Positions 1 through 64,000 of a stretch of DNA of 64,000 nucleotides are shown here, piece after piece (the first letter of the stretch is position 1; each line of letters starts with the position of its first letter). Position numbers and translations under genes: made by a program. This stretch comes from Terramyces sp. JEL0728 (taxonomy: Eukaryota > Chytridiomycota > Chytridiomycetes > Rhizophydiales > Terramycetaceae): contig JADIIU010000042.1 of NCBI GenBank assembly GCA_027603945.1, forward strand, positions 1-64,000. Direction: 5' to 3'. Under the pieces are notes generated by a model, which was not told where the DNA came from, ran no database searches, and saw only the letters and a program-made list of their open reading frames with translations.

Positions 1-2081
1 GTAGCAGCATCGTTCAATACCGCAATCAACAAAATAAGACGATCTGGAAGTGCAAAGTTGTAGACCAAGATAGAGATAAAGAAGAACAGCAAGAAGTGGA
101 TGGTGGATGCAATACGGTAGAGAGCATATGATCGCATACGTTGGAAAATAGCTCTGGAACACTTGATTCCATCGACAATAGTGGACAACCCTTCTGCAAG
201 CAATACAATATCGGCAGCAGAGCGAGCAGCTTCGGTACAGCCTTCTACTGCAATACCAACATTGGCTTTCTTCAAAGCCGGAGCATCATTGACACCATCA
301 CCAGTCATACCAACCAAGTATCCACGCTTTTGCAACAATTCAACCACTCTGTATTTGTGTTCTGGAATAACATGAGCGAAACCATCTGCCTTTTCACATC
401 TGTCAATAAGAGACTCCTCATCCAAAGTATTGTCAACCAACTTGTGAGCATCCAAGATAGTTCTTTGCATACCAAGACGGAAAGCGACTTCTTTTGCAAT
501 AATCTGTTGATCACCGGTAATCATCTTTACATTAACTCCCATATCCTCACATTCCTTAATAGTTGCACCAGAGTCTTCACGAGGAGGATCCAGCAATGAA
601 ATCAAACCAATCAATTCGAATTTTTCACACTCTTTATCACATGTTCGAGCTACTCCTAATGCCCGAAGACCACGACCAGCCAAGTCTATAATTGCTTTGC
701 TGCCAGTGTCATGGTCTCCGCACATTTTGATTATGACTTGTGGAGCACCTTTGACAACTCTAAATTGCTCTCCACTGTCCAACTTTGTCACTCTGGCTTC
801 GGTATATTTGCACGTAGGATTGAATGGGATGAAATTAGTGACTTTGTATCCAGGAATTTGATGGTCCTGGTCTGGTCTATCGCGCAAGAGTGGCACTTGT
901 TGTTGAGCAGCCTTTCTTATAGTGCTTTCAATAGGATCTTGAGCCCCGTGTTCCGAAGAAAAGAATGAATTTAGCAGTAAATCGTCGGAAGTGTATTTTT
1001 CACCTGTTCCCTGTAAGTTGTTTGTAGAGTTTCCTTTGTACGCCAAAAATGGTTTATCTAACGACAACTTGTTCATTGTCAAAGTTCCAGTTTTATCCGA
1101 GCAGAGAATGGACACGGAAGCAAGTTCTTCAATAGCAGTAAGACGTTTGACAATGACTTGTTTCTTTGCAAGTTCGGAAGCACCAACAGCCATAGTAACA
1201 GACATGACAGTTGGCAAACCAACGGGAATAGCAGCGATAGTGATAATGACGGTTTGCTTGAGAGAGTCGAGGAAAGAGTTACCCTTGGTAGTCATAGAGT
1301 CAATGAAGATAATGAGAGCCATAACAACAGTAATGATAACCAGGAAATCACCAATAGTTTTGATGACTTTTTGGAAGTGACCTTCTTCGTTAGTCATGGA
1401 AATCAAATTAGCAGCACGGCCAATGTAAGTGTGTACACCGGTTTTTACAACAGTAGCCAACATTTGGCCCTGTTTGACAATAGAAGAAGAGAATGCGATA
1501 TCTCCTTTATGCTTAGAAACAGGAAGGGATTCACCAGTCAATGCGGATTGATCGATTTGCAAATCATGTTCAACTGGTTCACCAGTAGCATCAATACCCA
1601 ACAGTCTGGCATCGGCTGGGACAATGTCGCCCAATCTGAGAATAATAATATCGCCAGGAACCAAGAGAGCAGCTTCGACTTCAACCAATTTACCATTTCT
1701 CCATGCTCTGGTCTTCAAAGCAAGAGTGTTCTTCAAGGCATCCAAAGCAGATTCTGCCTTGGCTTCTTCGTGGAAACCGATAACCGCATTCGCAATCAAT
1801 ACGAAAACTAATATTCCAAAATCTATCCAATCGCCCAACCAGCCGGATAAAATACAGGCAATTTCAAGCAAGTAAGAAATAGGTCCTAGAAAGTAACCGA
1901 GAAATTTCAGGTATGGGTTCACTTTTACTTCGGGTAATTCTAGTTTTAATAGCCACTAACCGTTCTTGCCAAACGCTGCTAGACGTTCATCTGCCTCCGC
2001 GTCTGTTAGACCTTTTGATGGATCTGTCTGAAGTAATTTTTCCAACTCTGGCTCGATTTCCTCCAACTCTTTCTCACCCAT
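1..2081 (-). CDS. PMA1: Plasma-membrane P-type H+-ATPase (P3A), C-terminus cut by window edge
   Basis: Proton pump that energises the plasma membrane. Read on the minus strand, the start is at 2081 and one 21-nt intron lies at 1940-1960. The frame then stays open to base 1, so the C-terminal membrane helices are missing. Visible in order: an acidic N-terminus (MGEKELEEIEPELEKLL), the first membrane helices with an FLGPISYLLEIA stretch, SALTGES in the actuator domain, the phosphorylation motif CSDKTGTLT (about 1078-1101), the N-domain, DPPRED, MTGDGVNDAPAL (about 280-312) and the start of the later helices (SYALYRIASTIHFLLFFF). The motif set and AIPVGLPTVMSVTMA favour the H+-ATPase class over Ca2+ or Na+ pumps. 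Whether an autoinhibitory C-tail exists cannot be seen. Confidence 0.93.
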
Positions 2082-2334
2082 TAACTTTTTTAGAGAAAAT
2101 TCAAAGCCTTGCTAAGATTCGCGTTTTGATGATGTAATACCAGCATGGCCAATACACATTGGGTGAATTAACCGACTAAAACCAGATAAGCTCTAAAAAT
2201 GAGGTTTTCAGAGTTTTTCAGAGCCAATTTCATTGTTAAACTATCCTAATTGCAGATATCTCACTGAACAAGAAGGATTTCTGCAAAAAAAGTTTTTGTC
2301 TTTCCACACAGAAATAGGACGAAATTTGAATACA

Positions 2335-3910
2335 ATGTGGGAACCAATAGATTCGATGCAGCTGCTTCAAATTGGAGTGGCAATCATCGCAGGACTAGGG
2401 ATTTGGAAGTACACTCAACCATCAAAGCGATCAAATGGTGAAACGAAGCGGTTATTATATCCAGGAGGACTGTACAATGATGGAAACACCTGCTTCATGA
2501 ACAGCGTAATTCAAGTAATTTCCATTAATATTAGTCATTAGTGTCAATGCCTTCACTTATTCAATTTCTGGAGGAAATCGACTACGACAATGCAAAAGTA
2601 ACTTCAGCAGTGTTGTATTTAGCAGATGGTACAGTCACAGCTAACTTAGCATTGAAATTTGATCATGGAAAACGAGCGCTCCGTCCGTACGTTCTCACTT
2701 CTGCCTTGTCTGGACAAGGAAATAGACACTTGCTGGGATATCAGCAACAAGATGCTCAAGAATTTTTCCAGCATGTGTCCAGTTTGATCTCAGTGGAAGG
2801 ACAAAAGAGAACCAGAATGTCATTGGATATCTTTGCGCCAGTTGATGCTGGACTAAAGTACTACTATGCTGGAAAGGAATGCAGTATGAATAGGTTGTCT
2901 CATGGAAAAAGTCCATTAACTGGATTGCTCGCGAGTAGAATTACGTGCATGCAATGCGGCTACAAAGTATTTCAACCTAATTTTAGAGCCCTATGAAGCA
3001 TGACACATTCGACAACCTTTCCTTGACGATTCCAGCCCAGTCAGGAGTTAGTCTCAAAAGATTATTAAGAAATTACACATCTCCAGAAATTATACAAGGG
3101 TTCATATGCGATAAATGTTCAATGCTTGCCACCAAGAAATCTCTGCAAAAGCTGCAATCAAAACAGCCGAACGAATCGCAGAAAACACCTTCGGCAAAGT
3201 CAGATACTATGAAAGCAAAGAAGAAGAAGAAAAAAAAGAATTCCGCTAAAGCGATTTCCAATATTCCCGCAATTCCTTTGACAATGGATAGAGAAAGTCA
3301 GCTAAAGTTTATTACTAGTGCGATTTCTTTAGAAAATTTTGAAATTGAATTTGTAACTATTGTCTGACCTTAGCCTAAAGAAATCGAAAAAACCAAAATC
3401 TACGCTGCTGTTACAAAGCAAATCTCAATTGAAAATACTCCAAAGTGCCTTTGTTTGCATATGCAGCGGTCAATGTACCTTCCCTCGGGCCATCTCATCA
3501 AAAATAATGCTGCAGTAGTATTTGAAGACACGTTGGATATAACTGATATGATTGTACCACAGATACCCTTGAAAGAGTCTTTAAAATCCCTGCCAGTCAA
3601 AACAACAGCCAGCAGTAGCTCTGACACGTTTCCTGGAGTAGAAATAGTCAAAGAAGTTGCCGATAACATCATAAAGCCGAAATTACAATTTAAATATGAA
3701 TTAGTTGCAGTTATTTTACACTACGGCCACCACGAAGCCGGTCATTTCATTACATTACGCAAGATTAAACACACTACTGAAAAGGGAACAAAAGATATTT
3801 GGTTTAGAATATCGGATGCGACAATCGATCGTATTACGGACGTGGAGAACGATGTATTTTCGCATGGAAGCCAGTACGCATATATGATATTCTATGAACG
3901 CATTAAATAA
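2335..3910 (+). CDS. USP30: Membrane-anchored ubiquitin hydrolase, USP30/Ubp16 type
   Basis: Cysteine deubiquitinase of the USP (C19) family, likely tethered to the mitochondrial outer membrane. Four exons are joined by introns at 2515-2534 (20 nt), 2967-2986 (20) and 3353-3373 (21), giving 504 aa, close to human USP30. Near the N-terminus is one membrane helix (LLQIGVAIIAGLGIWKY). The Cys box is NDGNTCFMNSVIQ, the His box is HHEAGHFITLR, and CxxC pairs (CMQC, CDKC) form the usual zinc fingers. Splicing restores SPMKHDTFDNLSLTIP, typical of this subfamily. An odd feature is a very lysine-rich insert (about 3208-3250) inside the catalytic domain. The upstream in-frame TTG at 2233 was not used as start. 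The role in removing ubiquitin from mitochondria is inferred from the family. Confidence 0.9.
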
Positions 3911-4020
3911 ATAATGTGCCAATTAAAAGTTTTGTATACGGGTAGCTGTATTTGCAAGCATTTCAAGTCTGCTTCGGTATATAATTTCCGAATTAAAGTT
4001 TACCTTTTTAACGCGTCGCC

Positions 4021-11731: not shown

Positions 11732-13522
11732 TTATTGTTCAGCCATCATTTCGTTTTGTTCAATCTGTTGTTGAGCACTTGATCCTGGAGCACCTTTTCT
11801 GCTTACACCACTAACGATATCGTCAACACGGAGTAACAAGCAAGCACTTTCAATCGCAGTTTTCAAAGTTTGCGATTTGACTGCATAAGGTTCCCACACA
11901 CCATAGGAGTGCATGTCGACAATTTTACCGTTGGTGCCATCAATGCCCCATGCGGTTTCTTTGGCAGAGTGTTTAGCGCGCAATTCAGTCAAAGTCTTGA
12001 TAGCGTTACCGCCGCAGTTTTGAACCAAAGTACGTGGAATGACTTGCAAAGAGTTTGCAACTGCCTTGTAAAGCAATGGATTTACACCTTCCAAAACCTT
12101 TGCTTTTTCAACCAAGCCGGCTGACACGGCCATTTCGCTGGCACCACCACCTACGATTAACAGAAACTTTACCTGGGCACAATAGTGGTTCAAATAACAC
12201 ATTGCGGGCAACAGCCATCGCATCTTGCAAGTTTCTGTCAATTTCTTGAAGAATATCTTTACTTGGACCACGCAAAAGGATAGTACAACTCTTTGGGTTC
12301 TTGCACTCAACCAAGTAAGTAAAGTATTCATCCCCAATCTTTCTGATTTCAAATAATCCACATTCGGTGCCAACATCTGACTCTTTTAATTCTTCAGGTC
12401 TGTTAACAATAGTAGCTCCAGTTGCTCTAGCAATACGGAAATTGTCCATCTTCTTTGTGCGTCTAATTGCAGTAATGTTTGCTTTCATCAAGTAGTGTTG
12501 CGCAATATCTGACACACCCTTTTCAGTGAAAACTATATCTGGTTTAACCCTGATAATATCATCACACAACTGCTTGACTTGCTCTTCTTCAATTTCCAAC
12601 AAACGGGCCCAGTGAGATTCATCAGTAACTTCTACGTTGGTTTGCGATTCCCCTTTTTTGTATTCAAGCGGACAATCTAATAAAACAATTCTAGGGTTTA
12701 CAATTCTTCTTCTCATTTTTGGGTGAGTAACATCCTTGTTGATCATAATTCCGTCAAGTACTTTACATTCTTCGACAGTACCACCTGGAATCTAACGTTA
12801 GGCTTGTTCTATTAGGAGATCTATTGCAGATCTAGGGAATTTCCGATCTCTCGCTTACCTTTTCAACACGGGCATATCTCTTGATATCAATTTCCTTTTT
12901 GCCATTCTTTTCCATAATGACAGTCTTTACGGCTTCGTAAGCTAATCCGCACATGAGATCACTCCACGAAGAAACCATTTTGGTGCCAATAGAAGCCTTG
13001 ATCAATTTAATCATTTCAGATTTTTCATTAATATTAATTGGGACAGAGATACTCTTCAAGATTTCCAAACCGTCTTCAAGCGCTCTTTTGAATGAAGAGA
13101 TAATAATAGTAGGATGGATTTGGCGATCAAGGAAAGGCAAGGCACTGGACAACACTTCACCAGCTAGCAATTAATTAAATGTACCTAAAATAATAACTGA
13201 TGTGGTTCCATCACCTACTTCTTCGTCCTGGGTTCTTGACAATTCAATCATTGATTTAGCAGCCGGGTGAGCAACTTCACATTCTCTTAAAATGGCATTC
13301 CCGTCGTTGGTCAACACGATGCCACCCATAGGATCAAGCAACATTTTCAACATTGCTCGTGGCCCAAGACAAGATCTAATGATATCTGCGATGGTCTATA
13401 TTAATCAAGGGATACTTTGGCTGCTTGGATGTTGGAAAGTTGAGCTTTGTGGCCGCTTTGTCTTTCCATATTTGTATCTATGTTAAGAACTTCCTACTCA
13501 TTACAATAACATTAGGATTCAT
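11732..13522 (-). CDS. CCT3: Chaperonin CCT/TRiC subunit gamma
   Basis: Subunit of the cytosolic chaperonin that folds actin and tubulin. Introns at 13478-13497 (20 nt), 13396-13415 (20), 13164-13184 (21), 12792-12858 (67) and 12151-12172 (22) give 546 aa, equal to the usual family length. The N-terminus reads MNTNMERQSGHKAQ. The nucleotide loop is present (DPMGGIVLTNDGNAILREC, EEVGDGTTSVIIL), followed by KKGESQT and CGGNAIKTLTELRAKH, which mark the gamma subunit. The 67-nt intron is exceptional for this genome; its position is fixed because the flanks must read RYARVEK then IPGGTVEECKVL. Confidence 0.95.
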
Positions 13523-25500: not shown

Positions 25501-28500
25501 CTCTGAACATCCAAAGAGCTTGTTCTCGATGAAAAGTTGATATTCAACACAATGTTCCTTTCAGCTGGGAGACTGCGCAAAAAGTTAGCGACTGTAACAG
25601 TTTTCGATGTTCCGACTTCCCCAACAAATAAGACTGGCTTTTTGTTTCTAACAAGCTTCTCCAAGAGCCAAGTATGACGAATAGTGTCCATGGTTGGCAC
25701 TAAAATTTTGTGGAATGGTGTTTGCCTGTTATGCTCGTATGGTGGAACATATTGGTTCCATGAAACCCACTTCAATTCATCCAAATCAAAAAAGTAGTCA
25801 TAGAGCGATTTATCGCTTCCTGGCAGTTGTCCCAAATTAATCGGCATATTTGTATTAACAAGAGGGTATTCTGATAATTTCTTTACAGCGTCAGAGAATT
25901 TTACGCGATCATCTTCAAGTATCGACGCACCTAGTGACCACACAATTGATTGAATAAATATATTCTCCATCACATTTTCTTGTGTAATAGCTTTACCATC
26001 ATTGAATTGACTTTCTATCAAGGAACAAAGCTGAACTACCAAACTGAGTGGATTGATTGGGATGACGCGTTTGAGCGGCTCCCCAATGAAACCTTCAAAC
26101 AAGCCCTCCATAATATATTCTGCTAGCGGATTAATGTATTTGTTAAAGAACTTTAGCATGCATTCAGTCTCTAGCTTTGAAGTCCTGGCATTAGCCCATT
26201 TTTGGAAATATGGAACATAACCCAAGTTCTTTGGATCCATGTACACCATACCACATCTTGATACAGTGGCAGGACTGGCATACTGCAAATCGCCTACTTC
26301 AAATAGCAATGAGGAGTGCTTTTGCAGTCTAATACGCTCTCCATTAGGTAAGGTCAGTAGACGATTGTCATCCATAACTGAATTCATGTTTTCAACCCAC
26401 ACAGCATCCACGTCGCCATCAAACACAATATATTTACGCTCTTTCTTATCTCCAATAGGCTTGTTCACTTCCCTAAAGATATTTGAGAGCAAGCCGTCGG
26501 TCCAGTCACGAGTAACAGGGTCCAGCACACCATACAATTCTGCAACGGAGACTGCCTTGGCATTTAATACGTAAAGCTTCGTAATTATTCCTAGCTTTGT
26601 TTGGGCTTTAGCGAGCGCATCAATAACAACTGATTTGCCACCGCCTGCAGGGCCAACCACCATAGACGTGTGTCTAGTGAGCATAGTTTCGTATAACTGA
26701 ATTACTTTGTCAACTTGTTCTGGAACTATTAAATACTGTCCTTCTCTCAACACTTCTTCGACCGCATCATTGAAATTTGGATACCGAACCCTTGGACAGT
26801 CTAATCCTGGGAACAAATCTGAAATCAATCCAAGAAATAGGGGAACATCTTCAAACACGAATTTGGGCAAATTCATGTCACGAAGAGCTCTCATCAGCAC
26901 AACATCCTCGTTCAAGTCAGGAGACCCTCTTTTCAATGCTCCCGCCATAACCAAAACAGATTTAAGGGCACGAAGGCCAAAATCATAGTGGTTTTGTTTT
27001 GAGAGCTGTCCTTTTGCAAGTTTGTAAAGCACAACCATCTTCTTTGCCAAGCTCTTTGCCAGAGTGAATCCTTCAGAGAATAGCATGATTTCACATATGA
27101 GTTCCAAATCTGGGACTGCCATCACAACAGGTCTAAACAAGGCTTTCAGATTATCTGGCAGTTCTGTTCTTCCAGCATATCCAGGATTCATTGTAATGAA
27201 TATGCCCGTCTTCTTATCCAAAGAAATTTCGTGCCCTTCAAATTGGAATCTCTTCAACCCGGTCACCAGCGCATTTTGGATTGTTTTGATTTGCGCAGAT
27301 ATGACCGATAATACTGCCAATTCGATTCTGTTGAACTCGTCAAAACATCCCCACGCACCGGTTTGGACCAGTCCGGCAAATATTTTGCCCATTGCTTGAT
27401 AATCCATGCCTTCACCACAGTTGGTTACCATACACAAAAGCCCGAGTGCTTTTGCTAGGTCCTTTACAGTTTCTGTTTTACCAGTTCCGGCAGGACCAGC
27501 AGGAGCCCCGCCCAGTTTCATTGATAGAGCTAACGTGAGAGTCAGGTAGCAGCGGTCCGTCAATGGTGTGATGACAAGACGCCCATTGAGACCCATGTAT
27601 TCGTAACCATATTCGAATGTTCCGTTAGCCTGAACTGCCAACAATTCATCCACTTCTCTGTCCCAGTAAAACTAGAATTAATTTCATTTACTCTTAACTG
27701 CGACTCCCATTCAAATTCGTTTGCGTCCATGATAGAGTCTCTTACAAATCGATCTACAATATCTCTTGCATGCACATCGACAATTATTTGTGAATTGATT
27801 TTTCTTCTTTCGTTTGGAGGTAAATCTGATCGAACATTTACGACGAGCTGTTCCAGCTGATCACCCAGCGTTTTGGAGTATTTTTTCATTGCAAGTTTGT
27901 TGCCAGACTTTATCTTTTGGAATACATCTTCAACTTCCCAAGTCCACCAAACCTGAGCGCCAGCCAACCCCACCATACCAAGATAAGTTTGGAGCCACAA
28001 AAGTCTGTCCATTGACGCGTAGTGGTAAATAGCTTCCTTTGTAATAGTCCTATTGGACCTTTTCATTTCCGCCTCGACAACAGTCATCCACTCTTCTACT
28101 CTACCTTCAATTTGAGCAGGTTTTCGGAAGGCAAGCACTTCACCTTCGGACGACGACATTCCCACAACGAATTTCTCCAGTTTTCCAGTTCCGAAATTGA
28201 GCTTTAGAACATTGTCAAACATTTTGATGATGTGTTCTTGGACATTTTTAGGGTCGTGGCTTCCCAAGATAGATAACAATTCTTCATCTGATATGAAAAA
28301 GAATCTAGGAAAGGCATTTCTCTTTGATTGCAAGTAATCTGAAAGCGACTTTTGGCATGCTTCTAAATCTTCTGACAGACCCTGTAGCAATTCCAGTCTG
28401 CCTTCAGCATTACAGGCTTCGACTACTAGGTTATGTTTAGCGGTTTCTGCCATCAACTTTTTGAAAGATTTGTCAATCCTATCAAACTTTGCAGCTTCTT

Positions 28501-41320: not shown

Positions 41321-43658
41321 ATGGAAACTGAAGATGACTCAGATCTCGAATTCGATAATTCAGAATTGAGTGAAAATTTAAAAATTGACCACGGAATCCG
41401 TCCACTATGGATAAATGAAGATAATCGCATTATACTAGAAGGTTATTAGGGTTTAACCCCAAGCATTCAGTCCAATACATCAAGAAGCAGAAGATTTACT
41501 GCTAGCAATAGCCGAACCAATATCAAGACCTGCAAGAATTCACGAATATAAACTCACTACATATTCGTTATATGCGGCAGTGTCTGTTGGATTAGATGGG
41601 GACACAATTATTGAGGGGCTAGATAAACTCTGCAAGACTGCAATCCCTCATTCGGTAATACAATTCATCAAGTCTTCCACTTCATGTTACGGGAAAGTTC
41701 GTTTAATCCTGATAGAAAATCGATATTTTGTGGAGTGTGCTGAGGATGAATTGCTAAACAGGCTATTGGACGATTCGGATATAAAGCTAATACTGGAAAG
41801 GAATATGGCAAATGAAGATGTTGCAGTTCAGCCTGATAATCCTGAATTGCTGCCCATTGACTTATTTTCAGTATTTGACAGTGATATCTATTTGGAAGAT
41901 GAATTGGGAGAGAATGACGAAATACACCCACAAAAATCAGAATCAATACATACTTTTGAATGTCTATTAGAAAAGATTAGATTAGAAAGAAAATTTGAAA
42001 TCGAAAAGAATGATGTGGAAACCTTGAAAAAGAAATGCGCAGATTTATCGTATCCAATGTTGGAGGAATACGATTTCCACGCAGACACCTTCAACCCGCA
42101 CTTGGATTTGGGTAATCAAACGTCTAACAAAGATTTAAAGCCCAACGCAAAACTAAGGTCTTACCAAGAGAGAAGTCTAGGGAAGATGTTTGGTAACGGA
42201 AGAGCACGATCTGGAATTATAGTCCTACCGTGTGGGGCCGGCAAGACGTTGGTAGGCGTTACAGCTGCCTGTACCATAAAAAAAAGTTGCTTAGTCCTAT
42301 GTAATTCTAGGTAAATAGTATCTTATACATTAGCTTGAGTGTTGAGCAATGGACACGAGAATTTAAATACTGGACTACAATAAAGGATACTGATATTGCA
42401 AAATTCTCTTCCGAGTGCAAACAGCCATTTGAACGGGACTCTGGAGTGCTAATATCGACATACACCATGTTGACACACAGTGGTGCGCGTGCGTATGATG
42501 CACAACAGATGCTCGATTTCATAAAATCTAGAGAGTGGGGATTTCTGCTGATGGACGAGGTTCATGTGGTTCCAGCAGGTATGTATGGCAACTAAGTAGA
42601 TATGTTCAAAAAAACACTTACAATAATTTCCTCACATGCCAAGCTAGGATTAACAGCGACTTTGGTTAGAGAAGATGAAAAAATTCACAATTTGAACTGG
42701 CTCATAGGTCCAAAGTTATTTGAAGCGAATTGGATGGAGCTGGCGTCGCTTGGTTATATTGCAAATGTTCAGGTACTCATTTCATAATGAAAGTGCAGCG
42801 AAGTTTGGTGTGACATGACAAAACCATTTTATCGAGAATATCTTCGGCAACCATACAGGTAATAAAAATTAACTTTAGGAAGAGGCAACTGCTATATACA
42901 ATGAATCCAAATAAAATCAAAGCGTGTCAGTATTTGATTGCCGTGCATGAGGCAATGGTAGAATGCAGCTTATTATAGGGAGACAAAATCATTGTATTTT
43001 CGGACAATGTTTTTGCGCTTAAAGTATTTTTGGATTAACTTAGCACTATGCAGAAAAACTACAAAAACCATATTTGTATGGAGGAACCTCGCAATCAGAG
43101 AGAATCAGACTTTTGCAACAGTTTAGATTTAATCCAGCGTTAAACACAATCTTTCTGAGTAAAATAGGCGATACTTCGATCGACATACCAGAAGCAACTT
43201 GTTTGATTCAGATATCTAGCCATTTTGGAAGTAGAAGACAGGAGGCACAAAGATTAGGACGGATTTTGAGACCAAAGAAAAATTGCAATACCAAAGTTAA
43301 CGCTTTCTTCTATACGTTAGTTTCTAAAGATACAGAAGAAATGTATTATGCAACAAAGCGACAACAATTTTTAATTGACCAAGGCTATGAATTTAAAATT
43401 ATCACAAATATTCAAGGAGTAGAAGACGGGGTTTATCAGCAATTACCCGAAGAATTGGCGCTGCTGAATACCGTTCTATTATCGCTGGAAACAGAGGAAA
43501 TTGAAAATGAAATAAGTGATGACGAGCTCCCTGCAATGCCATACACGATGTTGGAATCTAAGATATCCTCAATATCTGGAGGAGACGCAATGGCATACAT
43601 GGAATTCAGAGGAGGAACCAGTAGTGGAATGAGCCGAAAAGAAAGAAAGAAACTGTAA
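41321..43658 (+). CDS. ERCC3: TFIIH DNA translocase/helicase XPB
   Basis: ATP-driven translocase of TFIIH that opens promoters and acts in nucleotide excision repair. Eight exons, introns 41442-41463 (22 nt), 42311-42333 (23), 42579-42599 (21), 42773-42793 (21), 42859-42878 (20), 42958-42978 (21), 43024-43043 (20), give 729 aa. Landmarks: N-terminal [18 protein letters not shown], motif [13 protein letters not shown], motif [29 protein letters not shown], then [35 protein letters not shown] (motif VI) and [15 protein letters not shown]. It is slightly shorter than human XPB at the N-terminus. One of the most intron-dense genes here, yet all introns are about 20 nt. Confidence 0.96.
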
Positions 43659-48423: not shown

Positions 48424-48802
<379 letters not shown>

Positions 48803-48942: not shown

Positions 48943-49702
48943 ATGAATACAGTGGGGATATGTTCTCTGATGACTGCTTCATTTGTGGGCTCGTTTTACT
49001 TGTTTGGCTACGATGCAAGTCATAGGGATGATCCAAAAGTGATTGTGAATAGATTAAAGAGTTCAGTCTGTTCATGTATTTTGGGAGTTGGATTTAATTT
49101 GTACAGGGCAAAGGATATAAAATACACGCTGGATCTAATGGGATTTAATTTCAATATTTTACCTTCGATTGGAATATCATTGCTGCTTTCTGGAGCTTTG
49201 TTTCTGGGTCCATTGATAAATGAATACAGGAATTTCTCAATTCCAAACAGGATTACACTGAGTCAGCTAAGGGATTATATACTGGTAACAATTAATAATA
49301 CAGGGGCCGGCAATAGAAGAAATATTTTTTAGATCTTGCATGGTTCCCATAGCATTGCAGGAATATTCTCCATTTGCTTCGATATTTCTGTGCCCAATGT
49401 TTTTTGGAATTGCGCACTTGCACCATCTTATTGAACAACTCAGAAGAGGAGTAGAACCAAGGCGGGCGATACTGGTCGCGCTATTGCAATTCACCTACAC
49501 TAGTTTATTTGGTTTCTTTGCAACGTTCCTTTTGCTCAAATACAGTAATTGACTGGCTTACTTAGAAAATATCTTTGGTCCAATCGCTTCGCATATGTTT
49601 TGTAACTACATGGGATTCCCAGATATGCCGCAGACTACAAAAGATTGGATTGGATATGCAAGCGGGGTCTTAATATTTACTAGCCTATTTTTCATCTTAT
49701 AA
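48943..49702 (+). CDS. RCE1: CAAX prenyl protease 2 (RCE1)
   Basis: ER membrane endopeptidase that removes the -aaX tripeptide from farnesylated or geranylgeranylated proteins such as Ras. 239 aa; introns 49285-49303 (19 nt) and 49545-49565 (21 nt). After splicing the catalytic glutamates appear in [16 protein letters not shown], and the histidine motif is [13 protein letters not shown], followed by [20 protein letters not shown] and [16 protein letters not shown], all diagnostic. Several membrane helices. The start is the first ATG, since the earlier in-frame codon is TTG. Shorter than animal RCE1 at the N-terminus. Confidence 0.93.
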
Positions 49703-49820
49703 TAAAGCGATCTATTACATATGGGAACTCGGAGCAGTCAAAACTTTGTTTAGCTGGACAATTTATAATCCAATCTTATCCAATTGGTTGGACTTTTACT
49801 TTTTTAATCCAAAATCGCAA

Positions 49821-50854
49821 ATGTCAGACTTGGACAAGTTTCAAATTATTAATTCTAGACAAGTGCAGCAGTTATTAAGATGCGAAATACTACTAGAATC
49901 GCAAGTCAAAGAGCTATGTAACAAAGCAAGGGAAATCCTTGTGGAAGAAAGTAATGTTCAAAAAGTTGATGCACCAGTAACAGTAATGACCGTTTAACCA
50001 GATATGTGGAGATATTCATGGGCAATTTTTTGATTTGAAGGAACTATTGAAAGTGGGTGGAAAGTGTCCCGATACCAATTACTTGTTTCTGGGCGATTTT
50101 GTAGATCGCGGATTTTATAGTGTAGAAACGTTTCTATTGCTAGTAGCGCTAAAAGTACGATATCCTGATAGGGTAATTAATTTTTAATTAGATTACTTTG
50201 ATAAGGGGAAACCATGAATCAAGACAAATTACTCAAGTGTATGGATTTTATGACGAATGTCTGAGGAAATATGGATCGGTGAACGTATGGAGATATTGCT
50301 GTGAAATATTTGATTATTTGTCACTCTCTGCTATTATAGACGATAGGATTTTCTGCGTTCACGGTGGACTATCACCTTCGATTAATAATCTGGATCAAAT
50401 TAGAATCATTGACCGCAAACAGGAAGTTCCGCATGAAGGCGCGATGTGTGATCTGCTATGGTCCGATCCGGACGATATTGAAGGTTGGGGGCTGTCTCCC
50501 AGAGGCGCTGGATATCTGTTTGGCGGAGATGTTGTAGATACTGTAACCATTTTTAATTATAGTTTAATCATGCGAATAAAATAGAATTAATAGCACGAGC
50601 GCACCAGCTAGTAATGGAAGGGTACAAGCTAATGTTCAAGGATACCATTGTCACAGTTTGGTCGGCTCCAAACTATTGCTACAGGTGCATAGTGCTAACA
50701 TAGATGTGGAAATGTTGCAGCGATATTGGAATTAGATGAGCATTTAAACAGGAACTTTAAGATATTTGATGCTGCACCTCAAGTTACGCCTTGTTAACGT
50801 TAGGATTCTCGTGGAATGCCAGCAAAGAAAGCAATACCAGATTACTTTTTGTAA
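49821..50854 (+). CDS. PPP4C: Protein phosphatase 4 catalytic subunit
   Basis: Ser/Thr phosphatase (PPP family, yeast Pph3) acting in DNA-damage recovery and signalling. Six exons, introns 49983-50001, 50173-50191 (19 nt), 50543-50562 (20), 50685-50703 (19), 50783-50803 (21); 311 aa. Metal-site motifs are GDIHG, GDFVDRG and RGNHE, with VHGGLSP and [20 protein letters not shown]. It ends in DYFL, the methylated C-terminal tail of PP2A/PP4-type enzymes, and [20 protein letters not shown] and [20 protein letters not shown] favour PP4 over PP2A and PP6. Confidence 0.96.
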
Positions 50855-50918
50855 ATGAGAATAAAAATTAACTGCAATCATGGTTTATGGATTTATTCGG
50901 TGAATATTGTAATATTCT

Positions 50919-52062
50919 TTAGAACTGGTGGAGTGCAGCTGGAATTGCAATCCCAATGGCGATCAGGACAACCAATAACACCGCGATGCAGAGGATCCTC
51001 TAGAATTAACATTGGTAACCTTTCTGGTCTTTTTTTGTGTATGCAACGCTTTATCTAAGCTCTCAACTCCTTTCTCCACGTCCTTCACTGCGGTTTGTAC
51101 GTGTTTGTTTGAATTATCGATATATTCACCCTGTGCAACTACTAATACAGCCATGTCAACAAATAGTTGGTGTAATTCTTTTATGCTCGATTCAATTTTT
51201 AACACGTCCTTGTGCGTTCGGTTTATATCTTCCAGTGCATTTCTTGCCTCTGCTTTTTGGGCAGCATTATCTACTTTGTGCGAAAACATTTGTCCCTGAA
51301 TCATATTTTCAACTTCTGCAGGAGTTGCATTTGGTTTTGCGATTAGCGCCGATTTCTTCATTCTTTCAGTAAATTTGGTCTGATATTTTTCTTGTACATT
51401 CTTGTAATCTTCCAGTAATTGAACAAAATTTTTTACGAGTACTTCATACTAACTTAGCGCAATTATACCTGCGCCGTGCGTATTGCAAAGTTTGGATCGC
51501 TTGGTTTCAATTGCTTGGTTCCCCTTTCAATATCTTTTAGAGTTTCGCGGACATGAGTTTGAACAGATTTCAACTTGTCCATCTTTTTGTCCAGCTCTGC
51601 TGAAATTGCTTTTGTTAGTTCTATCTACCATCGCCTTGTTCATCGGAAATAACTTGCATGGATCTGTGGTGGATTTCCTCGATTTCGTCAATAAGAAACT
51701 TGATTGAGGTGAGCGATTCCTTGATATTTGCTACTTGTTCAAAGAATAATTCAATTGTTGGCGGGGCAGACACCTCTGGAACAACTTTCCCTTCTTTCTT
51801 TGGTTTCTTGCCGAAAACACTCTTTTTTCTTGTAACCTCTTTCTGATCTTTGTTTTCCTCGCCTTCCGCATTCAGCGATTCGTTCGACTGCGTAAGAAAA
51901 TTGTTACCTGGTTTGGTGTATTTACTTTGCTCTTTGACGTGAATTTTCGGAATAACGAGGGCGATTTCTTTGACTTTTCCTCTTCGATTTTTGGAACTTC
52001 CAAGGCTTCGTTCGACTCTGTTAATCTATCATTACTTGCAAGTCATTTATTCTGTCTCTCAT
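50919..52062 (-). CDS. Plasma-membrane syntaxin (Qa-SNARE), tandem copy A
   Basis: t-SNARE for exocytosis, syntaxin-1/Sso1 type, 347 aa. Introns 52016-52035, 51888-51907, 51609-51628, 51449-51468 and 51000-51019, all 20 nt. An N-terminal basic, disordered part (MRDRINDLQ, KKSPSLFRKFTSKSK) precedes the Habc bundle (ELFFEQVANIKESLTSIKFL), the SNARE motif (SIKELHQLFVDMAVLVVAQG, zero-layer Gln), KTRKR and a C-terminal anchor (ILCIAVLLVVLIAIGIAIPA) whose exon is joined by the last intron. It shares its start MRDR and exon plan with the next gene, a tandem duplicate. The long pre-Habc tail is unusual. Confidence 0.9.
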
Positions 52063-52164
52063 GGAAAATAAAATGGTAAACAAAACAAATACAAAAACCA
52101 TGAATCGCAACCATTTATTAATGAATTAAACATCGACTTAGAATATATGTAAACCCTCTGTGTG

Positions 52165-53244
52165 TTAGCGAATCTTACTTAATACTGAAGGCACCGCGAC
52201 ACAAACGGCAATAATTGCCACTATAAGGAATATGATAATACACATTTTCTAATTTAAGAGCCGGCTACCTTTCTAGTTTTCTTTTGTGTTTTTACTGCCT
52301 TGGTCAAGGCATTCACACCGGCTTCAGTGTCATTCACGGCGCTGTCTACGTGCACAGCGATCTGGTTGATCATTTCCCCTTGAGCAGCAACCATTACTGC
52401 CATATCCATAAAGAGCTGTTGTAGTTCCAAAATGCTTTTTTCGATTTTGACGACTTCTTTGTGTTTGTTTTGAATATCTTCCAAAGCCCTCTTTGCTTCC
52501 TGGCGTTGTCCGGTATTAACAATCTTGGTTAAATTGGATTATACCTGTTTGGCAAACATTTGTCCTTGTTCTCCATCTGTCATTTTTTCAATTTCTTCTT
52601 TGGTTGCGTTTGGTTTCACTCAAATAAGCTTGTAAATTACCAATTAATGCTTGCCGTTGCATTCGATCTTTGAATTTGGATTGATACATTTCTTGGATCT
52701 TTTTGTACTCGGTCATAACTTCGAGAAAGCTCTTCATCAATACCCCATGCTGTCGTTAGCCCTCAAATACTTGAGAAGTTCTAATAGAATTGTCTGTTGA
52801 AGTAGGATCTTTTTTTTGTAAGGATTTGTTTAAAGCATCCATTTCTCATGTTAATCCCACATACCTTTGAGCTTGTTTCTGACGTAGGTTGTTTGCTTAT
52901 TGGCTTTATCCATAGCACTGTCTAACTCTCTTGCGATTTCTAAACGAATTAAACTATAGTTACCAGCGCTTTCCTTTTCGCTCGTTACATTATTGAGCGT
53001 TCTGTCGTGAATAACTCGAATTTCTTCAACTGATATTTTGATAGTGGCAATACTCTCCTTTAAATTTGCAATTTCTTCAAAGAACTGATTCATTGTTGCT
53101 GCCGTATTGGTTGGAGATTCAACGGCTTTGTCTTTTCCCTTCTTTCCCTTTTTCTTTGAAGATTCATCTTCAACGGGCTCTCCGTTTGCAGGCTTGATAG
53201 ATTAATGAGTATCCTACTTGTAAATCTAGAGTTCTGTCTCTCAT
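52165..53244 (-). CDS. Plasma-membrane syntaxin (Qa-SNARE), tandem copy B
   Basis: Paralog of the neighbouring syntaxin, 316 aa. Introns 53193-53217 (25 nt), 52846-52865 (20), 52750-52770 (21), 52619-52640 (22), 52524-52544 (21) and 52249-52268 (20). Start MRDRTLDLQ, a Lys-rich linker (SSKKKGKKGKDK), Habc (NQFFEEIANLKESIATIKIS), TSQHGVLMKSFLEVMTEYKK, the SNARE motif (SILELQQLFMDMAVMVAAQG) and the anchor (MCIIIFLIVAIIAVCVAVP). Copies differ across most positions, so they probably serve different fusion steps or stages. Same strand, 102 bp apart. Confidence 0.9.
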
Positions 53245-53293
53245 AGAATCTGTTTTAAGCGCGAAAACTAAAACAAATTCGGACGCGTGGAGA

Positions 53294-56055
53294 ATGTTCA
53301 ATCGACACAGTAAAGATGGAGGAAAGAGTAAAACACCAAACCCACCGATAAATAATCATTCAAATACAGTTCATGCTCCATCTACAACTCCAATTCCTCA
53401 AAAAAATACAAAAGCAGATAATGTACTTTCATGTTAACTCTTCTAGACTGCAAATGTCGCTCCTAATGATTCGCAGATATCATTCGAAGCTAGCGACGCG
53501 GAACAAATGAAAGTTCTAGTAAGGTAACCTAAAGTAAACAGTCAGGGTTCGTCCTTTGAATGAAATGGAGAAACACCATCGCATAAACGCAAAACCAGCA
53601 GTAAGGGTAAACGATGATGGTAAAACAGTTCAAGTAAATCATTTGTAATGATAGCTATATAGCCCGGATGGCAAGATCTCTGTCATGTCTTTCAATCGAG
53701 TGTTTGATGAAGACAGCGACCAAAAAGTTATGTTTTCCGAGTCGGGAGTGACAGAGTTGATTCACCAAGCACTAAAAGGGTACGCAACAACGATATTTGC
53801 TTTTGGACAGACTGGAAGTGGCAAAACATTTACAATAACCGGACCTGATGAAACCACACCAGAAACTGTAGGAATAGTCCCAAGGGCTCTCAGCGGGATG
53901 TTTGAAGAAATAAAAAAGCAGAAATCGTCAAAGGCCATCTCAGATATTAGAATACAGGCGTCTTACCTTGAAATATACAATGAAAATGTTAAAATTATGT
54001 TGATAAGTAGGTTCTAGATTTGCTGAATCCTCAGAATTTTGGATTGCCAGTACGATGGACTGCCGAAAGAGGATTTTTTGTGGAGAGACTATTTGTAGTC
54101 GACTGCGATAACCTGGACGACTGCTTGGCTGTTTTAGAAGAAGGTCCCTTTGTATTAACGCAGGGATACGAAATAGAACCACAGGCAGTCATGATATGAA
54201 TGAGCATTCGTCAAGGAGTCATAGTTTATTGACAATTTATCTCGAAATTAGTGGATTTGACGATACAGACGGCCATGTGCAGCAAAGATATGGGAAAATA
54301 AGTTTTGTAGATTTAGCTGGAAGTGAAAGGGTTAAGGAATCAAAACCCACACTTGACACATTTAATGAAGCCCTGAGCATCAATAAATCCCTGCTTACGC
54401 TGGGAAAGTGCATATCTGCATTGGCGGATCCAAAAAAGACTGGTGGACATGTGCCATTCAGAGACTCTAAACTCACTAAACTTCTATCGGACTCTTTGGG
54501 TGGAAAAGGCTCGGCACTTATGATATCTTGTATTTCGCCATCGCTAACGAATTTTAACGAAACTCTAAAAACACTGCGATATGCTCAACAAGCGAGAAAG
54601 ATTACCAACAAGCCTTCAATTCAACTCGACCCACAAGAGGAATTGTTGGTAAATCTTAAAAAGGAGATAAAGGGATTAAAACAAGAAAATCAGAAGCTAC
54701 GCCAGCTTTTAGAAGGAGAGCCGCAGTTTTCTACAATACTGCATAAAATTATCAAAGAATCAGAGGAAAATTCAAACCTATACAAAAGCCGGCCGCCTTC
54801 GCCATTTTATTCCAGAAAGTCAACCCATCCCGAAAAGATAAACCCAGAAATAAGACTCAAAGACGTAAAGAAGTTACAAGAAAGGAATTCAAGAAGTGCC
54901 AAAACGGACAATCGGGTAGTTCATGAGCAAAAATTCAATCAGTCGTCAAAAGTAAATTCACAAAATAGGACAAGCTCAGTTCGAAGAAACTCTCTAAAAC
55001 TCCCAAATATTGGGAAAAGAGCTCCCTCAAGACAAGATGGTGCAAAAACCCCTTCAAAGCAGCGAGTTGATGAAATGAGGAAATCTTTTGCGCCAGCAGG
55101 TTATCCAGTAATCAAACCTTCCGCAAGACACACTAGAACCAAGACTGACGAGCCGGAAAGGTAATTCAACGATAACACAGGCCGCACAGAAAGGAATCCA
55201 AACCAGTAGTGGACAAATTCCTTTCAGAACAGGGTAAATCGATTGAACCTTTGCACAAAAAGAAGACTGTCGAGATTAAAACACCTGGAAATGAGCCTGC
55301 AACTTCAACTAAAGCACCAAAGACACCATATCCAAAAGAAAATGCGGGGGGAAATCCAAAGAAACAACGTGGTGTAAATGAAGAGCATATACAGCCAAAA
55401 TCACCAGAGCCAGCTACTTCAAAGATACAGCCAATATTGCCATCTTCAAAATCTAAATCACGAGAGCCATCGAAATCCAAGGCATTAGCTGACGCTACTT
55501 TACCAGAACATACAAAGAAAAAAGAGACAGAACCTTCCAATGCCAAGAACGTTTCGGAAAAAAGTAAATCCACAGAGCCTGCCAAACATAGAGTGACTGA
55601 TAACCCTAAAACATCTGAATCTGCAAATCCTAAAAAACTGGCCGAGAAATCAAAATCGCCTGTCGTAGCGGAATCCAATACAAACAAAACAGAACTTGCC
55701 AGGAAACCTGGAGCTAAATCCCAGACACCAGGCCCGAAATCACCAGAACCATCGAAAACAAACAGTGTGAAAAGAAACGCTAAATCACCAGAGCCATCCC
55801 AAAAAGAGACCAAACCAGCTGCCCAAAATACTAGGCAGAAAACAAAAGAAAAAGACTCAAAAATAACCCTACCTACAATATCAAAATCTCCCGAGCCAAA
55901 TAAATCAAAATCCCCAGATCCCAAAGAGTAAATTTTTCTAATTTAGAAAAGAGCTTAAATTACCAAAAACAGTAGAAAAAGAAGTAAATAGCCGTCACCA
56001 AACATTAAAAGAACTAAAAACCCTGGATAAAGAGATAGCAAAGCTAAAAAAGTAG
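53294..56055 (+). CDS. KIF12: Kinesin motor, KIF12 type, with KSPEP-repeat tail
   Basis: N-terminal microtubule motor, 870 aa. Introns 53423-53446 (24 nt), 53524-53545 (22), 53634-53654 (21), 53988-54010 (23), 54144-54163 (20), 55161-55180 (20), 55928-55946 (19). P-loop FGQTGSGKT, switch I NEHSSRSH, switch II DLAGSERV, then HVPFRDSKLTKLLSDSLGGK. The stretch LPVRWTAERGFFVERLFVVD parallels KIF12. A short coiled coil (about residues 400-430) is followed by a long disordered K/P/S/E tail with repeated KSPEPS-like motifs, candidates for proline-directed kinases, and a final helical exon (ELKTLDKEIAKLKK). Cargo is not evident. Confidence 0.88.
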
Positions 56056-56074
56056 TGTAAATAATAGAAACGTT

Positions 56075-58677
56075 TTAATATTTAATCTTCATTATTTCTA
56101 TAGTCGTTGGATCGTTAATCAGAGATCTGTATTTTTCTGAATATTTGAAATCTTTTAACAGCTCGTTGGAAATCTGTCTATAGTTTCGTTTTAGAATACG
56201 GATATATGCATGCAGCCCCATCCAGTATATTTCTTTTTTTGCCAGTTTGATTTTTGATCTTGTTTTTACGATTGCATATTGGTAATCGATGCTTTCTAGG
56301 ATAACCTTTACCATGAAATCCTTGTTGACGGTCAGGTAATGCAAATAAGAGCCAAATCGCATTGCACATATGATGAACGTTTGGTAAATATTCAGCAGAA
56401 TTGTTTTGGCAGAGTTTAGCTTGCAATCATAATACAGTGAATGGGCCCTGTTTTTCATATTTCTATATTAGCATCCATTACTGCAAGGTTTTGTTTAATA
56501 AAACCGTTCCTGGCGCTTTACTTGTATCTACAGAAAAAGTATACTTTAAATGCAAATCTTGGAATCTAGAGTAATCAGAAAGTACTTCTAGAGTACTGGA
56601 ATGGACAAGTAGTCCACACCAAGGAAACCAATCAGAATCAGAATGCTTGAATTCAAATCCATTTTTTGAATGTTTAAAATTCAAAAGTGTTTTTGAAGGA
56701 TTTACAGTCATTCCATATTCAGCAAACCCACTATGCATTAAATTACAAAACTCAATGACCTCTTGCTTATTTTTCGATACAAACAAGAAATCATCAACAT
56801 ATCTCATTAAACCATTCTTGAATTGCTGTAGTTTTTCATTCTCCATTTTCCCATAAAACAGGCTGCATTAAGAAAAAGTTACTTGCACAGCAAAGTAGAT
56901 AGAACCGATCCTTGGGGAATTCCTTGATGCTGTCGATAGCAGCTCCTGCCAATTTTTATTGTATGATTCAGCAAATGGGTAGTCAACAATTCCATTATTT
57001 TCTCTTTGGACTCGAATTGGTAATTTACAGCATCTACAAAAATAGAATCCTTGATATCTGAATTTAAAACAAAGTCATGGAAATCTTTGAAACTATTGGA
57101 ATCCATTGCTTCTCTCTTGTACTCGATTCTCTTGTTTATCAAACTGAATTTCCTAATCAAGTACTCTGGTTTCTTGAGGAAGCCTTCAATGATCTCCAAT
57201 AATAGTCGCTGATTGATTGTGTCAAAACATGCTTGGATATCAATCTTGCAAAAGTACAGTTTTTCAGGTATATCCGCCAGCGATTTCTTGATTGCCAATA
57301 GACGGTTAAAAATATCATTCTTTCCAAAACAGCTATTGCCAAAATCTTTGATATTTTCATTCTAAATTAAGTAAAAATACTTTTTCATAATTAAATATGC
57401 AAAATGCATTTTTTAGTATCTGGTTTAAACTTGTCTTGTAATTAAACTTTTGAATGTTCTTTTTACTTTGATTTACAATGATTCTTGCTCCATTTTGTTT
57501 TAGCAGCAATCTAACTGAGTGACTGGGTTGATAATCACAGCGGGAAAAGTTTGTTAGGCTGTACAATTTGTATTCCATCCTCTTCCAATCCGCGTATTTA
57601 ATGTAAATGAGTTTATTTTTCAAATAGCTGGTTTCTGTAACATAATAGTTTGCTTTCAACAAATTGATGACAAAGTGGTCACATAGCCAACTTGTAAAAG
57701 CAGAAAATAATTCTTGTTTTTTAATGAAATCAGTTGGTGCTTGTTTTCCCTCAGTCGACAGCCATTCAATTTCATTGAGTTTGATTCCATCAATAGAAAT
57801 CCTAGAGATTTGATACCTGGTGGAGTCTATTAGTCTATTGATTTGCTTGATAATCTTCACCTTGTTTCTCACAGATCCGAAAATACTGGTTGGAAATAAT
57901 CTTTTCATGACTGAATATACAAATAATTTGGGGTCATCATTCATTAATTCTTTGTAATTGATCTTTTCATGTCTATTTTCCAATCTGTTTACCAAATCTT
58001 TAACTTTTTCAAACCTCTTTTTCTTTTTGATTTTAAAAATGTTGAAATTAATGTTTGGTTTACAATTGATTTTGCCATTAGAAAAGGTAGGGTTACCATA
58101 TAGCACCCGTTGCCAATGGACGATGTTTCTTTGGTTTACTTTATCTGGAGGTGGTTTGTCTATCATCGGTGCAGCCTGATTGATTGGTATCTCCTTGTTT
58201 TGTGCAATTCTCTTGTACACATTGGTAAACGCTGGTCCGCATAATTGAAACACGTTTGTATTAACAGCAACGAAAATAGAGCAATTTAACAGCAGAAAGG
58301 TAAGATTATCCTGCCCAATCAAATGATATAATTCGCTCCATTCCTTGTTTTTCAAAATAGAAACCAGAGTATTCGGAAACCCAATTTCATAATGAATATT
58401 CCCAGTGGAGATGATTCCCCCCTTTCCGCACAAATTTGAGTATCCTAATTGTAGTATATTATCAGACTTGAGGAGCAGACCAATCACTCTATCGATAACC
58501 TATGTTAGTTGCAGCTACAGAGTGGTAATCGTCAAAGATCATTCTTTCCTGTTCATGAAATTCAACATAGCCAACAATGACATTTGCAAAATATTTATAA
58601 TAAAGAAAATCAGTGTTGATGTTGAATAATTGCGTGATTGGTTTTGTGTTTTTGAAATTTCCAGAGATTGTCTCCAT
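56075..58677 (-). CDS. TERT: Telomerase reverse transcriptase
   Basis: Catalytic subunit of telomerase, 841 aa. Introns 58500-58518 (19 nt), 57362-57380 (19), 56863-56882 (20) and 56463-56481 (19). Motifs in order: the N-terminal TEN-like region; T motif (FVINLLKANYYVTETSYLKN); motif 1-2 (SVRLLLKQNGARIIVNQSKK); motif A (LYFCKIDIQACFDTI); B' (HQGIPQGSVLSTLLCNLFYG, completed by splicing); C (MRYVDDFLFVSKN, catalytic Asp pair); D (YGMTVNPSKTLLNF); E (WCGLLVHS); and a C-terminal extension. The RNA-binding domain and LFYGKMEN favour TERT over retroelements. Compact compared with vertebrate TERT. Confidence 0.95.
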
Positions 58678-62998: not shown

Positions 62999-63324
62999 TT
63001 ATTGCTTCTTGACAGCTCCGTAGCTTTTCTTGACATCCACACTCTGTTGCTCCCAATTCTTTTTGCTCTGCTGTTAGATTGCCATTACCGAATCTGCATT
63101 GCTCTGGACGACCATCGACCGTAAATCTATGTGAGAGACAACTCACCTGCCATATTCTTTGGCATTTCCTTTGGTATTTCCGACTCTATGGTTTTTTGAT
63201 TCCCCCATCGCTGGTCTTTTTCCGACACGTTGTTTACGAAATTTGGGTCAGAATCCCACTCATCATCATTGCTATTTTGGACTACAGGGTTCGGTTTGTC
63301 TAGCGTTGCTGTTGCCTTCCACAT
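62999..63324 (-). CDS. Cortactin N-terminus-like mini-protein
   Basis: 94 aa; introns 63127-63146 (20 nt) and 63068-63088 (21 nt). The N-terminus MWKATATL followed by DDEWDSDPNFVNNVSEKDQR and WGNQKT matches the Arp2/3-binding acidic region of cortactin/HS1 (MWKA..[21 protein letters not shown]). After it come LRSMVVQSNAD and KKSYGAVKKQ, like the segment before the first cortactin repeat, but no actin-binding repeats or SH3 domain follow. So this would touch Arp2/3 without binding filaments, if functional. Divergent from the next gene with 222 bp between starts. Confidence 0.72.
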
Positions 63325-63546
63325 TTTGTTAATTTGTAAAAAACCATTGTGAGAATCAATGTTCTCTATTCGAACGCGGAAATGAAACTGTTATCCGCCG
63401 ATAGTTGTGCTGCCAAATCAATAAAATAATTGTATTGGATAGTCGCGGCTTCATTTATTCGTTCGAGTTGTTTTATCAGTTGGTTTCTATTTACCTGACA
63501 ATGGATTTTCATTGTCTGCTGTCAAAATTCCTTTCAAATTTACAAA

Positions 63547-64000
63547 ATGGAAGATATCATAGACATAAGGAAAGAGATTGGAAATCTGGTGTTTGAAGGA
63601 TCAGTTTTCAATGACACGCCAATCAAGCAATCGGATAATCTGGATTTTGTAATTATAATTTAAACATTAGTCGTCTACCCCGAGAGTTGTACTAAAAGGT
63701 ACTTTGAATATTAACAAAGAACTGGAAGATCCAGGCTCCTTATTTCCGTCGACAATGCACACAAAACCCACTTCAAACAACGATTTAACATTCCCATCTA
63801 GCGCAACTAGCGACAAGCGGTTCTCCACAATGATTCCAAACAGATCGAGAAACGGTTCGATTAATGAAATTGGGCCGGATATTCCCGAGGAACACAACAA
63901 CTCTGCGAGAAACAGTGTGGAAAATTTGAATGTAAAAAGCGGCTTTGGATCAATAGGCTCGCTAACGAATTTATTTAAAAAGAAATCAAAAGGTTTGTGT
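63547..64000 (+). CDS. Unknown protein, N-terminal part (cut by right edge)
   Basis: Starts MEDIIDIRKEIGNLVFEGSV. A 22-nt intron at 63649-63670 precedes SSTPRVVLKG. The sequence to the edge is Ser/Asn-rich and disordered (PTSNNDLTFPSSATSDKRFS, SGFGSIGSLTNLFKKKSKG), perhaps a regulatory N-tail before a domain outside the window. A second stretch, 63690-63710, has the form of a 21-nt intron, but it is a multiple of three with no stop, so both readings stay in frame. I do not recognise the gene. Confidence 0.6.

Follow-up and report, generated by a model that had tools for sequence, protein, structure and literature searches.

We examined a 64,000-nt window of contig C42 (104,134 bp) of the chytrid fungus Terramyces sp. 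JEL0728 (Chytridiomycota, Rhizophydiales, Terramycetaceae). Its protein-coding genes, among them those for CCT3, the XPB helicase, the LC8 dynein light chain, a PP4/PP2A-type phosphatase and telomerase reverse transcriptase, are interrupted by segments of about 20 nt that begin with GT and end with AG. The initial annotation of the window took these for ultra-short introns and proposed that they occur genome-wide. The latter claim now rests on 20 further 10-kb pieces (L006-L025) from 20 other contigs of the assembly, a draft of 231 contigs for a 15.0 Mb nuclear genome. Together with the window they make up 264 kb on 21 contigs, or 1.8% of the genome. Intron density is about two per kb of coding sequence, with nearly all introns at 19–23 nt and a mode of 20 nt. 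Three approaches were chosen so as not to assume an intron length: comparison with homologues, a motif scan, and a gene finder whose length prior was flat.

Homologues back 20 introns in four genes of the window (CCT3, XPB, PP4 and LC8). All except one are 19–23 nt long (19/20), and at all but one of the junctions (19/20) a solved homologue or three or more relatives align without a gap. The introns are listed here, with the fraction of relatives that are gapless at the junction where relatives were compared.

13478..13497, minus strand: 20-nt intron of CCT3; agrees with the deposited protein, gapless in 6/9, the other 3 truncated there
13396..13415, minus strand: 20-nt intron of CCT3; agrees with the deposited protein, gapless in 7/9, 2 truncated
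13164..13184, minus strand: 21-nt intron of CCT3; agrees with the deposited protein, gapless in 9/9
12792..12858, minus strand: 67-nt intron of CCT3 with a GTAAG 5' end, a rare longer intron; agrees with the deposited protein, gapless in 9/9
12151..12172, minus strand: 22-nt intron of CCT3; agrees with the deposited protein, gapless in 9/9
41442..41463, plus strand: 22-nt intron of XPB; gapless in 5/5
42112..42132, plus strand: 21-nt stop-less intron of XPB; the deposited protein keeps it as 7 aa that are absent from 5/5 relatives
42311..42333, plus strand: 23-nt intron of XPB; gapless in 4/5
42579..42599, plus strand: 21-nt intron of XPB; gapless in 5/5
42773..42793, plus strand: 21-nt intron of XPB; gapless in 4/5
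42859..42878, plus strand: 20-nt intron of XPB; gapless in 3/5
42958..42978, plus strand: 21-nt intron of XPB; gapless in 3/5 over the stretch shown, a fourth (P0122) spanning the junction and lacking 5 aa ten residues on
43024..43043, plus strand: 20-nt intron of XPB; gapless in 3/5
48725..48745, plus strand: 21-nt intron of LC8; the spliced product is gapless to dynein light chain 2
49838..49858, plus strand: 21-nt intron of the PP4/PP2A-type phosphatase; junction ungapped
49983..50001, plus strand: 19-nt intron of the phosphatase; junction ungapped
50173..50191, plus strand: 19-nt intron of the phosphatase; junction ungapped
50543..50562, plus strand: 20-nt intron of the phosphatase; junction ungapped
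50685..50703, plus strand: 19-nt intron of the phosphatase; junction ungapped
50783..50803, plus strand: 21-nt intron of the phosphatase; frame restored to the conserved DYFL end

Spliced CCT3 is identical in 546/546 residues to the deposited Terramyces sp. JEL0728 protein (P0001), and every relative that misses one of its junctions is a truncated model. Corrected with homologues, XPB has a product of 722 aa; three to five of five relatives are gapless at each of its eight junctions, and the exceptions are two Boothiomyces models without segments there. The initial annotation had singled out LC8 as a protein that reaches its family length of 89 aa on splicing. It does so once its 21-nt intron is removed, and the product aligns gaplessly over residues 1–89 to solved dynein light chains. 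The spliced phosphatase, 304 aa long, aligns to PP2A C over residues 3–304.

Public gene models handle these introns unevenly. The deposited Terramyces CCT3 model is correct. The deposited Terramyces XPB (654 aa) correctly removes the first, 22-nt intron, retains the 21-nt stop-less intron, and lacks four blocks present in relatives (21, 16, 23 and 15 aa; 75 residues) that lie beside tiny introns. The XPB model of Boothiomyces sp. JEL0866 is short of 63 aa, and the gap ends exactly at two of these intron sites, which suggests that Boothiomyces has the same tiny introns. Overall, blocks that relatives carry are absent from the deposited P0121, P0122, P0123 and P0029 (Terramyces and Boothiomyces XPB; Kappamyces CCT3). 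The missing blocks lie at tiny-intron sites in the XPB models, and in the Kappamyces CCT3 away from any Terramyces intron site. Because the XPB models of Terramyces and Boothiomyces are faulty at tiny introns, public gene sets in Terramycetaceae probably have to be rebuilt with the minimum intron length lowered, a judgment drawn from one gene compared in detail.

The motif scan used no gene models. Both strands of the 264 kb were searched for GTA with a downstream TAAC or TAAT whose branch A lies 4–7 nt before YAG, at total lengths of 12–60 nt; lengths of 12–17 and 25–60 nt served as background. Matches at 19, 20, 21 and 22 nt numbered 67, 107, 47 and 25 (sum 246), against a mean of 10.4 per length elsewhere, and the window alone holds 34 matches at 20 nt. 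Reversed sequence gave 62 matches at 19–22 nt and no peak, its own mean elsewhere being 13.3 per length, while a first-order Markov resample gave 21.4 at 19–22 nt.

The gene finder, a dynamic programme trained on long open frames only, treated every intron length from 10 to 100 nt as equally cheap. With GT-AG ends it placed 211 introns, 123 of them at 18–23 nt and 54 at exactly 20 nt. When 30 other end-dinucleotide pairs were substituted for GT-AG as decoys, the same finder placed between 7 and 29 introns at 18–23 nt. The pile-up at one length is the sole thing that separates GT-AG from the decoys in this test. A first run, with a flat prior extending to 300 nt, had called many long introns that were lost in later runs.

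These results bear on the possibility that errors in sequencing or assembly caused the frame breaks, and that the GT-AG segments are chance matches picked to mend them. The draft state of the assembly lends this some weight, as does a contig that holds at least one near-identical duplication. However, errors would not prefer GT-AG ends, one length and TAAY at a fixed distance, and at 18–23 nt GT-AG introns far outnumber those of any decoy. The motif scan is independent of reading frames, and conserved blocks return once the segments are removed. In addition, two near-identical copies retain the same segments and encode identical proteins (see below). We consider error a very improbable source of the segments.

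After learning intron signals, the refined gene finder called 458 introns in 145 gene models across the 264 kb, with introns in 127 of the models. Lengths of 19–23 nt account for 411/458 (91 of 19 nt, 170 of 20, 105 of 21, 37 of 22 and 8 of 23); one intron of 16 nt and none of 15 nt were called. For the window, the initial annotation had removed 103 introns, 99 of them at 19–23 nt and about half at 20 nt, and the refined finder gives comparable figures: 122 introns, of which 108 are 19–23 nt and 53 are 20 nt. It also returned identical ends for the three introns that had been cited as examples, each with GT and AG ends on its own strand.

2515..2534, plus strand: 20-nt intron, GT...AG; exact gene-finder recovery
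27672..27691, minus strand: 20-nt intron in a 4632-aa gene model, GT...AG; exact gene-finder recovery
56863..56882, minus strand: 20-nt intron in the telomerase reverse transcriptase gene; exact gene-finder recovery

The telomerase reverse transcriptase gene spans window positions 56075-58677, matches the Pfam families Telomerase_RBD, RVT_1 and TERT_C, and has five predicted introns of 19–21 nt. The 14 other window calls (24, 28, 34, 40 three times, 43, 67, 68, 70, 71, 99, 101 and 106 nt) are judged to include wrong ones. The 101-nt call starts within the final LC8 codons (the LC8 stop ends at 48802); it and the 106-nt call are judged to be joins of neighboring genes, PP4 having its own ATG at 49821. 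For the 40-nt call at 42271, homologues give a 23-nt intron instead. Elsewhere in the sample, a 42-nt call in L016 and a 40-nt call in L023 could each represent a pair of tiny introns (21+21 and 20+20) that abut without an intervening exon.

Near-identical copies offered a natural experiment. Two 3.1-kb copies at C199:4823 (L004) and C111:34941 (L005) are 98.9% identical, and both of their predicted proteins are identical. In the spliced frame their 15 coding differences fall at the third codon position in 15/15 cases. Two one-base indels lie within predicted introns, three more fall between genes, and coding sequence has none. Each of the two genes has one intron that measures 21 nt in the L004 copy and 20 nt in the L005 copy. 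A second pair, window positions 44246-54278 and C42:74001-84000 (L040), is 98.2% identical, with 50 of 72 coding differences at third positions. Since substitutions fall mostly at third positions of the spliced frame, that frame is the translated one. The second pair has 13 indels, 12 labeled intergenic and none intronic; the remaining one, at 49793, was labeled coding by a merged gene model and is actually 28 nt upstream of the PP4 ATG. In this second pair at least 10 kb is present twice on C42, in copies about 29.7 kb apart, as either a recent segmental duplication or two haplotypes in one contig.

The anatomy of the short introns, 421 of which are predicted in the 264 kb, is regular. Introns in a set of 376 begin with GTA (89% have A at +3), followed by A, T and T at 52, 47 and 55%; G at +5 occurs in 14.9%, and in 65/421 of the larger set. 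The sequence around the chosen branch A reads T/C-T-A-A-T/C, with percentages that are partly by construction because the choice of A favors these letters. TAAY lies 4–7 nt from the end in 297/421. Where a branch A could be assigned (344/376), 13.6 ± 1.1 nt precede the branch A and 5.6 ± 1.0 nt follow it. The interval that separates the 5' site from the branch is rich in T (40–59% at positions 5–9 of the 20-nt introns), and there is no space for a pyrimidine tract downstream of the branch site.

We therefore read the 19–23-nt segments as ordinary U2-type spliceosomal introns pared down to their signals, whose lariat loop would measure ~14–15 nt, and put the probability of this reading at roughly 95%. 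The segments, their length ruler, their motifs and the restoration of frames and conserved proteins are all directly observed. GT...AG ends are preferred, the branch motif can pair with U2, and removal restores both frame and protein. A sharp mode below 30 nt holds across the 264 kb, which places the introns in the ultra-short class (a narrow range within 15–25 nt).

The introns are laid out as GTA(A)TT, a U-rich stretch, (T/C)TAA(C/T) with the branch A at ~14–15, a further 5–6 nt, and a YAG end. The branch site would be bound by SF1 and the U2 small nuclear ribonucleoprotein (snRNP), and the 5' end by U1 and then U6. Branching would give the ~14–15-nt loop, and the AG 5–6 nt past the branch A would be used as the 3' site. 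With no space left for a pyrimidine tract after the branch site, any role of U2AF65 would have to go through SF1 or U2AF35 or through contact with the U-rich stretch that precedes the branch site. The lower length bound probably reflects a minimum loop size, and the upper bound probably reflects loss of recognition or deletion bias.

Several points weigh against this reading. Removal of the segments from RNA is something we infer from sequence, and this also favors the idea that they are excised from DNA, like the internal eliminated sequences of ciliates, or bypassed by programmed frameshifting. Against both ideas stand the GT...AG ends, a branch motif that fits the intact pairing stretch of U2, and the presence in this fungus of SF1, U2AF65, Slu7 and U2. 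Moreover, 77 of the 105 predicted 21-nt introns hold an in-frame stop (the gene finder favors such introns), which a frameshift would not remove. DNA excision or frameshifting thus seems a far-fetched account of the segments. As another point against the preferred reading, 124/421 short introns are without an exact TAAY 4–7 nt from the end. The decoys used 125–203 introns overall, compared with 211 for GT-AG, and reached 93–99% of the GT-AG score, so many single flat-prior calls are due to chance. The gene finder fuses some adjacent genes, and the PP2A alignment has a 2-residue gap directly after the junction of the last phosphatase intron (50783..50803), near the C-terminus.

Sequence comparisons within the genome add two more such points. 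Intron look-alikes within exons numbered 6 sense versus 24 antisense at 19–22 nt under a looser threshold, but were also fewer in sense at 14–17 nt (22 versus 38) and at 25–40 nt (means of 3.6 versus 6.8 per length). A stricter threshold gave 0 versus 9, 6 versus 6 and 0.8 versus 2.4 in the same three ranges. Other lengths are thus depleted too, and the gene finder biases these counts. Between the copies, introns evolve no faster than coding sequence: substitutions in introns, coding and intergenic sequence are 6/471, 72/7130 and 64/2221 in the 98.2% pair and 0/140, 15/2220 and 5/732 in the L004/L005 pair. Because intron substitutions are no more frequent than coding ones, the direct evidence from these copies that the introns are non-coding consists of the two indels alone. 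Introns also carry fewer substitutions than intergenic sequence, which might be expected if most of a 20-nt intron is signal. Finally, U1 and U6 were not found with Rfam models, patterns and one DNA search; since part of the candidates were scored and there was no eukaryotic control, this is not evidence of absence.

The initial annotation had held that such introns leave so little room that the spliceosome must be adapted. Its claim of real ultra-short GT-AG introns across the genome is strongly supported; the need for an adapted spliceosome is not shown, because U2 snRNA, U2AF65, SF1 and Slu7 are all present, align along their usual domains and look canonical. The U2 snRNA scored 140 bits, with the conserved branch-pairing stretch GUAGUA unchanged. 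U2AF65 (440 aa) matches a solved homologue in its N-terminal region, RRM1-RRM2 and UHM stretches, and the alignments of SF1 and of Slu7 (477 aa) to their solved counterparts likewise cover the usual domains. All three genes carry predicted 19–21-nt introns of their own; SF1 also has a predicted 15-nt intron that another run called as 48 nt. Nothing in the predicted sequences of these three proteins points to a set that is reduced or reworked. The deposited U2AF65 of Boothiomyces macroporosus (P0241, 578 aa) carries an extra PF17136 domain. In Terramyces there is a separate gene model just upstream of U2AF65 (L037), and P0241 may be a fusion of two neighbors.

The survey of splicing components that the initial annotation had proposed thus succeeded for U2AF65 and SF1 and, with low-powered searches, yielded neither U1 nor U6. 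By consensus the 5' end of U1 is ACUUACCU and the U6 box is ACAGAGA. The U1 Rfam model search returned nothing. Two Rfam matches to U6 (27.4 and 26.9 bits; cut-off 44) were rejected, as they lie in a predicted protein gene with its own 20/21-nt intron. A U6 core pattern had no match. A gapped U6 pattern had five matches versus four in the reversed control, none with Rfam support, and a pattern for the U6 3' half had one match versus two in the reversed control, without Rfam support and coding by eye. The Rfam U6 consensus, used as the query of a DNA search, matched nothing. ARAGORN found no tRNA gene in the window plus L006-L025, Rfam at gathering scores found one snoRNA only in the same 264 kb (snR75 in L021), and a primer-type pattern for 18S rRNA had no match.

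It is possible that the 5' splice site is what differs, given that G occupies +5 in only about 15% of short introns. On this account shrinkage to 20 nt would have gone along with a rebuilt 5' code, in which G at +5 was lost to U at +5/+6 and U1 and/or U6 changed to fit GTAATT. There would be two classes, short GTAATT introns and a small, longer set of 45–68 nt that keeps an ancestral GTAAG site, with splicing proteins otherwise standard. The low frequency of +5 G and the T preference at +5 and +6 given above are in its favor, and a changed U1 and/or U6 would explain why standard models missed these two, whereas U2 was found. Four predicted introns of 45–68 nt start with GTAAG and have TAAY close to their 3' end: two in the window (67 and 68 nt), one in L007 (45 nt) and one in L018 (56 nt). 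The 67-nt CCT3 intron among them has homologue support. G at +5 was also more common in calls of at least 38 nt with TAAY (7/16) than in short ones (44/297; Fisher p 0.007), although several of the 16 are probably false and one was shown to be so by homologue check, which makes the comparison soft. We treat this contrast as a lead and dropped a firm claim of two intron classes. With U1 and U6 searches that were weak and lacked a control, and with ordinary U2AF65, SF1 and Slu7, reworked 5' recognition appears unlikely, though less so than assembly error or DNA excision. Ordinary U2-type introns reduced to their signals remain our preferred reading.

Apart from the introns, window positions 36145-41256 hold adjacent genes that Pfam assigns to DUF1688, a GTP-cyclohydrolase-II-like family and uracil phosphoribosyltransferase. 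This gene set resembles what we take to be the fungal uracil catabolism (URC) set.

Ultra-short introns had been described in a few protists and algal relics; Terramyces adds a chytrid fungus to these. Among the matches listed in our literature search there was no report of ultra-short introns in chytrids, although an earlier mention elsewhere is possible; the available portions of aphelid and sanchytrid genome papers gave no intron lengths. The occurrence of these introns in a 15 Mb fungal genome with ordinary U2, SF1, U2AF65 and Slu7 argues that splicing a 20-nt intron needs neither extreme genome reduction nor loss of those components. If transcripts confirm the introns, Terramyces would offer a relative of well-studied fungi in which to test how small the loop can be and whether a pyrimidine tract is needed.

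The initial annotation had compared the introns with those of nucleomorphs and Stentor, a set that was incomplete, since the available text of other sources adds mikrocytids and further ciliates; Terramyces itself is neither a nucleomorph nor a ciliate. Typical fungal introns are longer, with a mean of 63 bp in Cryptococcus neoformans (PMC8476143, in the part available). The Terramyces introns share their GT-AG ends and branch-site motif, and the 45–68-nt introns are within that range, whereas the short introns are about three times shorter. Ciliates such as Paramecium and Nyctotherus are described as having introns of ~25 bp (PMC5014332, in the part available). Mikrocytids have introns of 16–17 nt and a reduced spliceosome in which 17–19 proteins were found, according to the sections available of PMC10245619. 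Terramyces introns are likewise very short and uniform, but the 224 introns given there for Mikrocytos mackini contrast with the 421 short introns predicted in 264 kb of Terramyces alone. Chlorarachniophyte nucleomorph introns, at 18–21 bp in the same portion of that source, share with those of Terramyces a narrow range near 20 nt and a large number. Unlike those extremely reduced endosymbiont nuclei, Terramyces has a 15 Mb chytrid nuclear genome, and its tested splicing factors are ordinary. Stentor coeruleus introns are 15–16 nt, GT-AG and AT-rich, with the branch A at 10–11 and a 3' tail of ~5 nt (PMC9505925, in the part available). Terramyces introns are also GT-AG and AT-rich with a near-fixed branch A and a 3' tail of ~5 nt, but are mostly 19–23 nt, have the branch A at ~14–15, spread more widely in length and include a few longer ones. 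In the available part of the Stentor survey all major snRNAs and many splicing proteins were found, and its list includes neither SLU7 nor PRPF18; the presence of Slu7 in Terramyces is of interest for that reason.

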